Assembly (NCBI RefSeq): GCF_014595885.1
Contig: NZ_JABUKC010000001.1
Coordinates: 248,001-312,000, forward strand
Length of the DNA stretch: 64,000 nucleotides
Source of the DNA: Microcella alkalica
GTDB lineage: Bacteria > Actinomycetota > Actinomycetes > Actinomycetales > Microbacteriaceae
Reading direction: 5' to 3'
Under the pieces are notes generated by a model, which was given only the letters and a program-made list of their open reading frames with translations, had not been told where the DNA came from and searched no databases. Positions 45,528-50,020 of the stretch are shown in pieces. Both the position numbers and the translations under genes were made by a program. Within the stretch, counting starts at the first letter, position 1. Every line of letters begins with the position of its first letter.

Positions 45528-45863
45528 ATGGACCTCGTCTCGATCCAGCACCCCGGTGGCATCACCGAGGTGAGCCTCGACGGGCGCCTCAACATGGTGA
45601 CGGCCGCGCGTGTGCGCGAGGCCATCCACGAGGCGATCGTCGCGAACAGCCCGAACGTGGCCGTCGACCTCTCGCGCACGTCCTTCCTCGACTCGTCGGG
45701 GCTCGGCGCGCTCGTGTGGGGCTTCAAGGCAGCCCGCGAGGCGGGCGGCGACCTGCGGCTCGTCAGCCCGACCGAGCAGGTCAAGCTCGTGCTCGACCTC
45801 ACGAACATGAACAGCACGCTGCGCTCGTTCGACAGCCTGGACGAGGCGTACCCACGTGGCTGA
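45528..45863 (+). CDS. STAS-domain anti-anti-sigma-like protein (first of two)
   Basis: The 111-residue product is a single STAS domain of the SpoIIAA/RsbV type. The phosphorylatable serine is Ser56 in FLDSSGLGALVWG. Such proteins are phosphorylated by RsbW-like kinases and dephosphorylated by PP2C phosphatases to switch partners. TAGGAG 6 nt upstream supports the ATG. CAGAAT at 45487-45492 is a weak -10 candidate. The end overlaps the kinase/phosphatase gene by 8 nt. Confidence 0.93.
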   Translation: MDLVSIQHPGGITEVSLDGRLNMVTAARVREAIHEAIVANSPNVAVDLSRTSFLDSSGLGALVWGFKAAREAGGDLRLVSPTEQVKLVLDLTNMNSTLRSFDSLDEAYPRG

Positions 45864-47469
45864 CATGGTGGCGCGCACGCTGCGCATCACCGCTCCACCC
45901 GACGACGTCGATTCCGTGCATCAGGCGCTCGAGTCGGTCTGGGCGGTCGTTCCGGATCTGGAACCTCGCGACCGGATGTCAATCGAGACGGCGGTCATCG
46001 AACTCACGGCGAACGTCATCCAGTACGCCAATCGCGGGAGGGCCGTCTCGTTCGCCCTCACGATCGTGGTCTACGACGACCGGGTCGAGGCGACGTTGAG
46101 CGATAGCGGTGAGGTCGACGACGTCGGACTCCATTCGCGCGGGATGCCCGACGCGATGGCGGAGTCGGGCCGGGGCATCCCGATGATCCAGGCGCTCGTC
46201 GACTCCGTGGAGCACCGCCGCGTGGAGGGCTTCAACCATTGGACGCTCGTGCGCGCGCGCGAGGCGGCGCGCGATTCCGTGACACCGGCGCGGGGCATGC
46301 CGTCGGTTTCGATCAGCGGCGTCATCGATGAGATGTCTCGACAGCGAGCACTCGAAGAACTGGGGATCCTCGACACGCCGCCGGAAGAGCGCTTCGACCG
46401 CGTCACGCGGCTGGCCACCCAGCTCTTCGGGGTGTCCGGTTCGGCGATCAATCTCATTGATCGCGACCGTCAGTGGTCGAAGTCGATGGTCGGGTCGTTC
46501 CCATCCGAGGTTCCGCGCTCGCAGTCGGCGTGCGCGATCACGATCGAGACGGACCAGACTCTCATCGTGCCTGACCTCTCCCAATGGGAGGGCCACGAGC
46601 ACATCGGCATCCCCGGCGAGTTCGAGTTCTACGCCGGTCATCCGCTCTATGCCCCCGGAGGGGAGCGCATCGGCTCGTTCTGCGTCTTCGACGCAAGCCC
46701 ACGCCATTTCTCGGAACGGGAGGTCGCGATGCTCCGCGACCTCGCCAGCTGGGTGCAGCAGGAGCTCTCCGTGAGTCAGGAGCTCAGTCGCGCCGCGGAG
46801 GTGCAACAGGGCCTGCTGCCGCAGCAGCTCCTCAGCATGCCCGGATGGGATATCGCGGGTATGTGCCTTCCGGCCCGGGCCGTCGGGGGCGACTTCTACG
46901 ACTGGTACCCGGTCGGGGAGGGCGCCGCGTTCACGCTCGCGGACACGATGGGCAAGGGCATCGGCTCGGCGATCATCGCGGCGACCGTGCGCGCCGTGCT
47001 GCGATCCGCCGCGCGCTTCGGCGACGTTACCGGCGCCGTCGACGCGGCGGCGGCGGCCCTCACCGGCGATCTCGACTCGACGGGCGTGTTCGTGACGCTG
47101 TTCCACGCGCGACTCGACATGGATACGGGCGAGGTGACGTACGTCGACGCCGGCCACGGGTTGACGTTCATCGCGAAGCAGAGCGGCGAGGTGCGGCGGC
47201 TGCGCTCGACCGCTCCGCCGCTGGGCATCGACATCGAGACCGAGTGGGTGGCGCAGACCGAGTCGCTCGAGGCCGGGGATGCGCTCGTGAGCGTGAGCGA
47301 CGGCGTGCTCGACCTCTACGCCGGTGTGGAGGAGGCGCTCGAGAGCGTCACCTCGATCGTCATGCTGGCCGAGTCCGCGGAGGAGATCGTCGACGCGATG
47401 CGTGCTCGCGCCCGCGGCGTCGCCCCCGATGACGTCACCGTCCTCGTGGTCAGGAGAGACGCGGCATGA
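45856..47469 (+). CDS. Fused RsbW-like kinase, GAF and RsbU-like PP2C phosphatase
   Basis: The 537-residue protein joins three parts. Residues 1-135 are a GHKL anti-sigma-type kinase: N-box ELTANVIQYA with Asn53, G1 LSDSGEVDD, G2 SGRGIPMI. Residues 165-305 are a GAF sensor (LGILDTPPEERFDRVTRLA). Residues 310-535 are a SpoIIE/RsbU PP2C domain: QQGLLPQ, GGDFYDW with Asp346 and Asp349, ADTMGKGIG, DAGH, SDGV and DDVTVLV. It could both phosphorylate and dephosphorylate the flanking STAS proteins. The GTG overlaps the STAS gene; an ATG three codons later is possible. Confidence 0.93.
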   Translation: MADMVARTLRITAPPDDVDSVHQALESVWAVVPDLEPRDRMSIETAVIELTANVIQYANRGRAVSFALTIVVYDDRVEATLSDSGEVDDVGLHSRGMPDAMAESGRGIPMIQALVDSVEHRRVEGFNHWTLVRAREAARDSVTPARGMPSVSISGVIDEMSRQRALEELGILDTPPEERFDRVTRLATQLFGVSGSAINLIDRDRQWSKSMVGSFPSEVPRSQSACAITIETDQTLIVPDLSQWEGHEHIGIPGEFEFYAGHPLYAPGGERIGSFCVFDASPRHFSEREVAMLRDLASWVQQELSVSQELSRAAEVQQGLLPQQLLSMPGWDIAGMCLPARAVGGDFYDWYPVGEGAAFTLADTMGKGIGSAIIAATVRAVLRSAARFGDVTGAVDAAAAALTGDLDSTGVFVTLFHARLDMDTGEVTYVDAGHGLTFIAKQSGEVRRLRSTAPPLGIDIETEWVAQTESLEAGDALVSVSDGVLDLYAGVEEALESVTSIVMLAESAEEIVDAMRARARGVAPDDVTVLVVRRDAA

Positions 47470-49496
47470 CGCCACGATCCGACGGTGAACCGGTCGACGC
47501 CGTCCCCGAGTCGCCTGCGCGGGTCCTGCTGCTGAAGCTGCTCGTGCTGCTGACCCTCACGACAGGCTTCATCTACATCTCGTGGCGGTGGACGGCCTCA
47601 CTCAACTTCGATGCGTGGTGGATCGCGATCCCCCTCGTCGCCGCCGAGACCTACAGCCTCATCGACGTAGCGCTCTTCGGCATGACGATGTGGCGCGCCC
47701 GACAGCGTCCCTCACCCGCCGAGCCGTCGCCGAGCGCGACGGTCGACGTCTTCATCACGACCTACAACGAGGACGTCGACCTGGTCATGGCGACGGCCCG
47801 AGCGGCGAAGGCAATCCGATTTCCCCACCGCACGTACATCCTCGACGACGGCGCGCGGGCGGAGATGGCCCGCGCCGCCGAGCAGCTCGGGGTCGGTTAC
47901 ATCACGCGGTCGCCCGACTGGCGAAACAAGCCCCTGCACGCGAAGGCCGGCAACATCAACAACGCCCTGATGCAGACCGACGGCGAGTTCCTTCTGATCC
48001 TCGACGCCGACCAGATTCCGCGTCCAGAGATCCTGGATCGCACCCTCGGCTACTTCGACGACCCGAAGGTCGCGCTCGTGCAGACGCCGCAGCGCTTCAC
48101 GAACGTCGTCGCGGGCGACCCGCTCGGCAGCCAGGCACCGCTGTTCTATGGCCCCATCCAGCAGGGCAAGGATGGCTGGAACGCGGCGTTCTTCTGCGGC
48201 TCGAACGCCATCCTGCGGCGCGACGCACTCATGCAGCTCGGCATCACGCGCTACGTCATCGAGCTCGAGGAGGCGCTCGAGCGCGCGCTGCGCGGCGCTC
48301 GTCGGGTCATCGCGCGCGCGCGCCGCCATCCGGCCGCGTCGCGCGCGGACGTGCGGGCAGCGCTCGACGACGTCCAGTCGGCGATTGTGGATGCGCGTCG
48401 CTCACTCCATGGGGGCCGACCGATCGGGCGGGTCACCTTCGAGCTTCAGCGCCGCATCGGGGCGATCTCGAGCGCGCTCGTCGAAGCTGATCTGACGCTC
48501 ATCCGCGCCGACCTGGATGCGCTCCGCGAGCTGCCCGTCGTCTCCGACGAGCACGTTGACACCGTGAGCGACGTCGGCACGACGGTCGACAGGCTGACGG
48601 CGCGCGAGCTCAGCCCGCTCGGCGCGATCGAGTCGGTGCAGCGGCTCATCCGCTCGCTCGACGTCGATCGGCACGAGGAGGCGCAGCCGCTCATGCCGCT
48701 CGCCACCATCTCGGTGACGGAGGACATGGCCACGTCGATGCGCCTCCACGCTCTCGGCTGGTCGAGCGTCTATCACCACGAGACGCTCGCCGACGGTCTC
48801 GCGCCCGACGACCTGGGCACGATGCTCAAGCAGCGTCTGCGCTGGGCGCAGGGCACGGTGCAGGTGATGCTGCGCGAGAATCCTCTCGCGAAGCGTGGCC
48901 TCAGCCTGGCGCAGCGCCTCATGTACTTCTCGACGATGTGGAGCTACTTCAGTGGCTTCGCAGCGATCGTGTACTTCACGGCGCCTGTCGTCTTCCTGCT
49001 CTTCGGCATCCTGCCCGTCGATACGACCGCCGCCGAGTTCTTCCTGCGGTTCCTGCCGTTCATGATCATCAACCAGTTGATGTTCCTGGTCGCGAGTCGC
49101 GGCATCTCCACATGGCGCGGACAGCAGTACAGCCTCGCGCTCTTCCCGGTCTGGAACCGCGCCGTCGTCAGCGCGGCCGGCAACGTCTTCGCGGGCCGAC
49201 CGCTCGACTTCGTCGTGACGGCGAAGAGCCGGCAGGTTTCGAGCGGCAGTTGGCGCCTCGTGCGATGGCAGGCCCTCGTCGCGGTCGTGCTCGTGATCGC
49301 CTCGGTGGTCGGCATCGTGCGCCTCGCGCTCGGTGTCGGCGAGCCTATCGGCACTGCGGTCAACCTGTTCTGGGTCGTGTTCGACCTGCTGATCCTCGCC
49401 GTCCTCGTGCCTGCGCTGCGGTATCGCGGCTACCCCGAGGAGGGCGAAACCCACTCACACGACGATACGGAAGGAGCGGCTCGTGGAGCTGCGTGA
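47466..49496 (+). CDS. BcsA-like GT2 glycosyltransferase with inserted helical domain
   Basis: The 676-residue membrane protein is a processive GT2 synthase of the cellulose/hyaluronan type: ILDDGAR (Asp127-128), HAKAGNINNAL, ILDADQ (Asp180 and Asp182), TPQRF, FFCGSN, SVTED (Asp420) and QRLRW (456-460). It has two N-terminal and about five C-terminal helices. Residues about 262-412, between FFCGSN and TED, are an Ala/Arg/Glu-rich helical insertion of roughly 145 residues absent from BcsA. No PilZ RxxxR motif follows the helices. The ATG overlaps the phosphatase gene by 4 nt. The polymer made is unknown. Confidence 0.92.
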   Translation: MTPRSDGEPVDAVPESPARVLLLKLLVLLTLTTGFIYISWRWTASLNFDAWWIAIPLVAAETYSLIDVALFGMTMWRARQRPSPAEPSPSATVDVFITTYNEDVDLVMATARAAKAIRFPHRTYILDDGARAEMARAAEQLGVGYITRSPDWRNKPLHAKAGNINNALMQTDGEFLLILDADQIPRPEILDRTLGYFDDPKVALVQTPQRFTNVVAGDPLGSQAPLFYGPIQQGKDGWNAAFFCGSNAILRRDALMQLGITRYVIELEEALERALRGARRVIARARRHPAASRADVRAALDDVQSAIVDARRSLHGGRPIGRVTFELQRRIGAISSALVEADLTLIRADLDALRELPVVSDEHVDTVSDVGTTVDRLTARELSPLGAIESVQRLIRSLDVDRHEEAQPLMPLATISVTEDMATSMRLHALGWSSVYHHETLADGLAPDDLGTMLKQRLRWAQGTVQVMLRENPLAKRGLSLAQRLMYFSTMWSYFSGFAAIVYFTAPVVFLLFGILPVDTTAAEFFLRFLPFMIINQLMFLVASRGISTWRGQQYSLALFPVWNRAVVSAAGNVFAGRPLDFVVTAKSRQVSSGSWRLVRWQALVAVVLVIASVVGIVRLALGVGEPIGTAVNLFWVVFDLLILAVLVPALRYRGYPEEGETHSHDDTEGAARGAA

Positions 49497-49842
49497 ACGA
49501 ACCCTGCCCGACGGCGTCGCCGTCGTCGCGCCCGTCGGGCGCCTCACGATGGTCGGCGCTCCCGACCTTCGTGGAAAGCTCGCCGAGCTCGTCGCCGACG
49601 GCCATACGCGGATCGTCGTCGACCTCTCCGAGGTGGTGTTCCTCGATTCCTCCGGCCTGGGGGCGCTCGTGGCAGGCCTCAAGTCCGCGCGTCAGGCCGG
49701 TGGCGACCTCCGCATCGCGAGCGCGACCGAGCAGGTGCTGCTGGTCCTGAAACTCACGAGCCTGGACCGCGTGCTCGAGCCGCATGCGACGGCCGAGTCG
49801 GCTTTCGCCGAGCTGCGACCGCGCGACCGCGGTGGCCGGTGA
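49483..49842 (+). CDS. STAS-domain anti-anti-sigma-like protein (second)
   Basis: The 119-residue product is a single STAS domain with Ser56 in FLDSSGLGALVAG, the same position as in the first STAS protein. The GTG overlaps the glycosyltransferase gene by 14 nt, so all four genes are translationally linked. It differs from the first copy outside the phosphorylation loop, so the two may have different partners, for example kinase versus glycosyltransferase insertion domain. Confidence 0.92.
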   Translation: MELRERTLPDGVAVVAPVGRLTMVGAPDLRGKLAELVADGHTRIVVDLSEVVFLDSSGLGALVAGLKSARQAGGDLRIASATEQVLLVLKLTSLDRVLEPHATAESAFAELRPRDRGGR

Positions 49843-49975: not shown

Positions 49976-50020
49976 TACCCTGGTCGAGGCCGTTTCTCTC
50001 GATATCGAGAGATCTCTCGA
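49976..50020 (+). promoter_or_regulatory. sucCD promoter candidate with overlapping palindromes
   Basis: TACCCT (49976-49981) is a candidate -10. TCTCTCGATATCGAGAGA (49995-50012) and TCGAGAGATCTCTCGA (50005-50020) are perfect palindromes sharing 8 bases and lying just after the expected transcript start. The rest of the 251-bp gap (49843-50093) shows no gene I can support. Confidence 0.55.

Follow-up and report, generated by a model that had tools for sequence, protein, structure and literature searches.

The window, by which we mean the whole stretch of 64,000 nt of Microcella alkalica DNA analysed here, carries four overlapping open reading frames encoding, in order, a STAS protein (STAS1), a fusion of HATPase_c_2, GAF and PP2C domains, a GT2 synthase, and a second STAS protein (STAS2), with overlaps of 8, 4 and 14 nt (Table 1). 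The frames and overlaps are as an earlier note on this DNA had described them, and their domains and motifs are intact. Both STAS proteins match the Pfam STAS family (E-values of 9.3e-18 for STAS1 and 2.7e-16 for STAS2) and both carry the motif D55-S56-S57-G58 (DSSG), in which we take Ser56 to be the phosphosite, as in SpoIIAA; STAS2 also matched solved SpoIIAA/RsbV chains. The fusion is composed of HATPase_c_2 (4.5e-13, aa 12-128), GAF (1.7e-12, aa 176-303) and SpoIIE/PP2C (1.5e-30, aa 356-534) domains, by which it is predicted to combine the activities of an RsbW-type kinase and a SpoIIE-type phosphatase. Its kinase motifs E..N, D-x-G and GRG are intact, solved RsbW is matched only weakly (E 0.014, ranked after two ZapA matches), and its PP2C domain gives a weak, sub-cut-off match to the SiaA model.

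Table 1. Features of the cassette and of the kinase-bearing GT2 homologues
Feature	Position	Strand	Length and basis
STAS1 (anti-anti-sigma-like), genus-core switch	45528..45863	+	111 aa; Pfam/NCBIfam; genus clade
Fusion HATPase_c_2/GAF/PP2C	45856..47469	+	537 aa; Pfam; in 24/26 genus genomes
BcsA-like GT2 polymer synthase, FxVTxK loop, without PilZ	47466..49496	+	676 aa; Pfam, motifs, Foldseek
GT2 insert (about aa 260-409)	48243..48692	+	predicted helical bundle, middling confidence
STAS2, at the site of the GT2-linked STAS in other genera	49483..49842	+	119 aa
GT2 with embedded RsbW-type kinase	L181:2947-5343; L185:5917-8337; L186:580-2988		between DDG and HAKAGN

The GT2 is recognised by Pfam Cellulose_synt (7.3e-27) as well as by several GT2 models, and reading of its motifs finds DDG, DAD, TED, QRLRW and the FxVTxK loop intact. 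The best Foldseek matches of its structure model (mean pLDDT 69) are BcsA structures, and no PilZ was among the Pfam families reported for it. An insert of ~150 residues is placed between FFCGSNA and TED, for which no relatives were found among solved structures or in Pfam.

Switch proteins and sigma factors of the source genome

The source genome (G000, 2.49 Mb) has just two STAS matches by either Pfam model, both of them in the cassette, and 14 HATPase_c_2 matches, among which the fusion ranks first. Seven other HATPase_c_2 proteins (L004-L010; six over the cut-off and one under it) are histidine-kinase-like by eye, the remaining six sub-cut-off matches lying outside this reading, and the fusion is the sole RsbW-type kinase found. 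The three SpoIIE matches are the fusion, which is strong, and two proteins that are PstP-like by eye, one barely over and one under the cut-off. Seven sigma region-2 matches comprise one SigA-type factor, carrying regions 1.2, 2, 3 and 4, and six ECF-like factors, three of which are without region 3 by Pfam and three ECF-like by eye. It had been claimed that no sigma or anti-sigma target is encoded, which is true of the cassette by a domain scan of its four genes. As regards a sigma factor encoded elsewhere that the switch might release, none of the 26 genomes of the genus set, G000 included, has a match to the SigB/F/G-type sigma model over a strict cut-off reached in only one of 14 control genomes; sub-cut-off matches occur in 25 of the 26. 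The top match to this model in G000 is the SigA-type gene itself, and G019 has a second sigma-like match at 98.9 bits, under the cut-off. No GGDEF domain was matched in G000, the control being positive in 8 of 14 genomes. Since the genome is without GGDEF and the GT2 without PilZ, control by c-di-GMP is unlikely here, in agreement with the earlier proposal that such control is absent.

Two modules in the genus

The fusion occurs in 24 of the 26 genus genomes, the two misses being assemblies that are 82% and 71% complete, and a full-length GT2 in five; in 19 genomes, some of them incomplete assemblies, STAS1 and the fusion are kept and no full-length GT2 was found. Among the fusion loci compared (23 of 24, G016 being left out), the switch has a UvrD/PcrA-like gene on one side and sucC on the other in 20, with names read from the sequence, and the other three stop at a contig edge. 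STAS, kinase and GAF-PP2C are found as separate genes in the same neighbourhood, without a GT2, in L090, L109 and L110 from three other genera. In the STAS tree, 22 STAS1 rows of the genus group as a single clade (99, starred), and the window STAS2 shares a starred set only with its sister from G002, in a tree from a short alignment that is poorly resolved.

The order STAS1-fusion-GT2-STAS2-kinase is present in L073, L076 and L082. The final kinase is missing from this order in the window and in L072 (G002), whose GT2 is ~83% identical to that of the window, and in these two STAS2 is kept beside the GT2 and its dedicated kinase is not; in the window, a tblastn search 3' of STAS2 found no kinase remnant (best E 4.7). 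In L092, L095 and L096, the order is STAS1-fusion-STAS2-kinase, with the GT2 absent and the STAS2-kinase motifs intact, and no GT2 remnant was found in L088-L110 at E up to 1. The cassette is a composite of a genus-core STAS1-fusion switch and a GT2-STAS2 module that is missing its own kinase. The view of the four genes as one primordial cassette has to be given up, as STAS1-fusion is present in 24 and GT2 in five of 26 genomes. Because 19 genus genomes keep STAS1-fusion with no GT2 found, the GT2 cannot be the only output of that switch, and STAS2-kinase has some use without the GT2, because it is kept in L092, L095 and L096. The earlier note had regarded the GT2 as the natural output of the cassette; it is likely the output of STAS2, but it is not the sole output of STAS1-fusion. 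A division of labour, in which one STAS would serve the kinase and the other the synthase, is plausible because STAS2 holds the place of the GT2-linked STAS elsewhere.

Other observations concern the neighbourhood of the switch. In G025, a second tandem kinase/GAF/PP2C fusion (L104:5725-7416) has lost its kinase motifs. In the window, a perfect 18-nt palindrome, TCTCTCGATATCGAGAGA (49995-50012), lies ~100 nt 5' of sucC; 23 of 24 sucC upstream regions scored match the palindrome pattern, which has two free middle bases, at 16-18 of 18, and that of L110 matches at 11 of 18.

GT2-STAS linkage across phyla

A full-length insert-bearing GT2 is present in 17 of 149 relatives, and a scan of genome contigs contributed 80 more, these being the best 80 among the 587 relatives listed; neighbour HMMs were built from the first locus set. 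With the contig scan represented by these best 80 of 587, STAS is found in 62 of 71 insert-bearing loci (61 directly downstream of the GT2, one upstream), a kinase in 64 of 71, with that of the fusion counted, and a PP2C in 55 of 71. The 27 ordinary GT2 control loci, 20 from relatives and seven from the contig scan (best 80 of 587), with L200 and L201 near contig ends, have no STAS, no kinase and no PP2C (0/27 for each). The 71 loci remain from 73 after L141 and L146, whose contigs end after the GT2, were dropped; L176, a fragment, is in no count. Fisher's test on the linkage gives ~1e-17, a value that serves as description only because the loci are related, with several per genus that are not independent.

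An even draw of 394 genomes of the class yielded 24 GT2 matches, 22 of them of full length; L239 (contig end) and L246 and L247 (partial) were dropped from the 24. STAS is present in all 21 assessable loci, at -10 to +108 nt from the GT2, a kinase follows STAS in 20 (the exception is the window), and a PP2C lies within ~1.5 kb in 20. Two of these 21, the window and G112, were counted earlier as well, and the species of the draw may overlap the contig-scan set; MAG records, such as L158, may be misbinned. The GT2-STAS arrangement is more than chance, since it recurs widely and is absent from 27 ordinary-GT2 loci, and the synteny is conserved across several phyla rather than confined to one strain, which would have refuted the earlier proposal.

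The usual module order is PP2C-GT2-STAS-kinase, and the order varies with constant content: the PP2C can stand before or after, a PP2C-kinase fusion precedes the GT2 in L167, L168 and L172, and PP2C-STAS-kinase is placed before the GT2 in L175. GT2-STAS without a kinase after STAS occurs in the window, G002, L075, L144, L163 and L173. STAS is missing beside the GT2 in nine of the 71 loci (L086, L127, L135, L142, L153, L154, L155, L157 and L161), and in L127, L135 and L142 the kinase and PP2C are missing as well, so that a switch next to it is not indispensable to the synthase. DSSG is present in 99 of 108 STAS matches scored, by a pattern that missed at least one more, and the kinase motifs are complete in 72 of 104 matches by a strict pattern, many others keeping E..N, D-x-G and GRG by eye and a few lacking them. 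In the Curtobacterium clade, an intact RsbW-type kinase gene stands directly after the GT2 in L086, L153, L154, L155, L157 and L161, and no STAS or PP2C was found within these six loci.

In the GT2 tree (112 rows and 517 columns; L141, L163, L173, L176 and L200 were left out of 117), which was rooted on the ordinary GT2s by choice and draws its contig-scan members from the best 80 of 587, the insert-bearing GT2s form one group of 70 rows (98, starred) and the cyanobacterial GT2s a separate group of 16 rows (100, starred), and the two together are split off from the 26 ordinary GT2s (94, not starred). STAS presence changes seven times on this tree, the truncated L146 being scored absent. The two groups are enlarged at different sites. 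The FFCGS-TED spacing is 167-190 in the measured intact insert-bearing rows, six others with differing motifs being left out, and 221 in L175, against 47 in cyanobacteria and 25 in the controls that gave a measurement (12 of 27); the frame-broken L163 and L173 have 127 and 130. The DDG-HAKAGN spacing is 132-149 in 13 cyanobacterial rows without an embedded kinase and 26-32 elsewhere, the pattern having matched inside the embedded kinase in L185 and L186.

At the related cyanobacterial GT2 loci, taken with the contig scan at its best 80 of 587, STAS is found in 14 of 16, a kinase in 10 and a PP2C in 8. Three of these GT2s contain an HATPase_c_2 domain (L181, 5.6e-19; L185, 2.3e-18; L186, 1.2e-18), which interrupts a segment that is also present, but free of a kinase, in other cyanobacterial homologues. 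The embedded kinase of L181 keeps the motifs E..N, D-C-G and GRG, and matches solved RsbW at 1.7e-6 and SpoIIAB at about 0.01. A STAS with NSSG instead of DSSG follows each kinase-bearing GT2 after 47-101 nt. A separate kinase gene is present in seven other cyanobacterial loci, and none was seen near L181, L185 or L186, the downstream flank of L181 being only 291 nt. The embedded domain ties kinase and synthase physically in three homologues that amount to at most two observations, because L185 and L186 are close relatives. The structure model of a kinase-bearing cyanobacterial GT2 has pLDDT <50 over most of the embedded kinase, so it allows no statement on orientation.

The insert was also considered as a dock for STAS, with a null result. 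In a first count, conserved insert residues are kept at 0.83 in nine STAS-less loci versus 0.92 in 55 others; once each clade is held out in turn, 15 STAS-bearing clades lie at 0.77-1.00 and three STAS-less clades at 0.80-0.89, with no extra relaxation of the insert in the latter. Among 52 trios, co-divergence as a partial correlation given the GT2 core has r 0.34 for insert and STAS and r 0.34 for insert and kinase, with 0 of 999 permutations as high for each pair; it was rejected as a pointer to the GT2 partner, r being equal for STAS and kinase and linked genes sharing their history.

The proposed switch, its rivals and its relatives

We regard the cassette as a partner-switching phospho-relay that, at least via STAS2, sets GT2 activity and does not release a sigma factor, and give this reading a probability of about 0.6. 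An RsbW-type kinase would phosphorylate Ser56 of STAS2, the phosphate would be stripped again by the GAF-gated PP2C domain when its signal arrives, and the state of STAS2 would decide, on the cytosolic side, whether the GT2 is held or free. Most relatives have a kinase gene of its own after STAS2. As this one is missing here, both STAS proteins would have to rely on the kinase/phosphatase fusion that belongs to the older STAS1 switch. In this scheme, the phosphorylation of STAS2, the direction of control, the partner touching the GT2 and the polymer are what we infer from sequence; the domains and their intact motifs, the nearly closed gene inventory of the genome, the wide linkage of the GT2 with STAS, kinase and PP2C, and the kinase domain inside three cyanobacterial GT2s are observed. 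With odds slightly better than even, such loci represent an old, multi-phylum class of BcsA-like synthases gated by a phospho-partner-switch instead of c-di-GMP, with the synthase in the place of the sigma factor and, in some cyanobacteria, with the kinase built in.

In a variant that we hold possible yet clearly less probable, the kinase rather than STAS directly holds the GT2 inactive, and unphosphorylated STAS pulls the kinase off. The kinase domain inside the GT2 of L181, L185 and L186 points to the kinase as the partner, as does the kinase directly 3' of the GT2, with no STAS, in six Curtobacterium-clade loci; STAS, however, is the steadier neighbour (directly downstream in 61 of 71 loci, the contig scan being its best 80 of 587), and GT2-STAS stands with no kinase after it in the window, G002, L075, L144, L163 and L173. 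Neither the insert nor co-divergence is decisive on which of the two touches the GT2.

It is unlikely that the switch acts on transcription via an unrecognised partner, with the GT2 merely sharing its transcript or being one of its regulated genes that has stayed close by. One-clade linkage of the GT2 across phyla, together with the embedded kinase, would then be hard to explain, no SigB/F/G-type factor is over the cut-off in the 26 genomes (a cut-off passed in one of 14 controls), and the genome itself encodes sigma factors of the SigA type and ECF-like ones, although STAS1-fusion and STAS2-kinase do occur without a GT2 and the well-studied systems of STAS, RsbW and PP2C domains are, with few exceptions, known to act on a sigma factor. 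Still more doubtful is that STAS2 here is a relic, the kinase having been lost, the GT2 no longer being switched and STAS1-fusion serving something else. While the absence of the dedicated kinase, without a remnant in the window and shared by G002, and the loss of the GT2 from most genus members would agree with a relic, the window STAS2 keeps DSSG and its 14-nt overlap with the GT2, and L072 of G002, with a GT2 ~83% identical, has the same arrangement.

The phospho-relay onto the GT2, our preferred reading, shares with RsbV/RsbW/RsbU and SpoIIAA/SpoIIAB/SpoIIE the DSSG-bearing STAS, the RsbW-type kinase and the SpoIIE/RsbU-type PP2C; unlike in those systems, no cognate SigB/F/G-type sigma factor was found here, and the steady neighbour is a membrane GT2. 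In Pseudomonas SiaABCD, also a partner switch, a STAS-like protein acts on an enzyme and the output is a diguanylate cyclase; the fusion PP2C resembles SiaA weakly, whereas G000 is without a GGDEF domain. The GT2 shares its fold, catalytic motifs and FxVTxK loop with BcsA cellulose synthase, and differs from it in being without PilZ and in the ~150-residue insert before TED. The Syp layout of Vibrio fischeri has a response-regulator module in the middle, whereas here GAF is in the middle of the fusion and the GT2 is directly overlapped by STAS. In V. fischeri, SypE is reported to be one protein, both serine kinase and phosphatase, which sets SypA Ser56 and thereby polysaccharide (PMC8256260, PMC4517449), and the direct target of SypA is described as likewise unknown (PMC8256260). 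The domain content here would fit such a dual kinase/phosphatase with STAS and polysaccharide, and the comparison with SypA/SypE in the earlier note is fair in logic, namely a STAS on Ser56 controlling polysaccharide (PMC8256260). Anabaena all4160, described as STAS and glycosyltransferase in one protein (PMC8256260), likewise joins STAS to a sugar-transferring enzyme. No description of a STAS-linked GT2 synthase was found in the open-access literature by title or abstract start; the parts are known from RsbVWU/SpoIIA and the logic from SypA/SypE, and it is their combination with a BcsA-like GT2 for which these searches gave no published account.

For the direct target that STAS-controlled biofilm systems still lack, the GT2 would be a candidate, and the module would be a candidate route for c-di-GMP-free gating of cellulose-synthase-like enzymes in actinobacteria and cyanobacteria. 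Its recurrence in many bacteria suggests a little-known on/off control of surface-polymer production, with STAS Ser56, the GT2 insert and the embedded kinase as testable handles.

As regards the product, cellulose is not established, because the GT2 scores 365.9 against a cut-off of 699.1 with the NCBIfam CelA equivalog. In 26 of 97 mapped loci (the contig scan being its best 80 of 587), a gene near the GT2 joins an OpgC-type acyltransferase to a weakly GH26-like part (L154:8366-10870, L127:8037-10610 and 24 further loci); two members scanned give 4.5e-52 and 9.2e-52 for OpgC, and 0.06 and 0.00021 for the GH26-like part. The GH26-like/OpgC companion gene had no match in the source genome, in a search without a positive control. 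A separate secreted protein is present in 11 of the 97 loci, again with the best 80 of 587 from the contig scan, and its sole scanned member is GH26-like (1e-13). These neighbours hint at a modified beta-glycan as the polymer of such loci.
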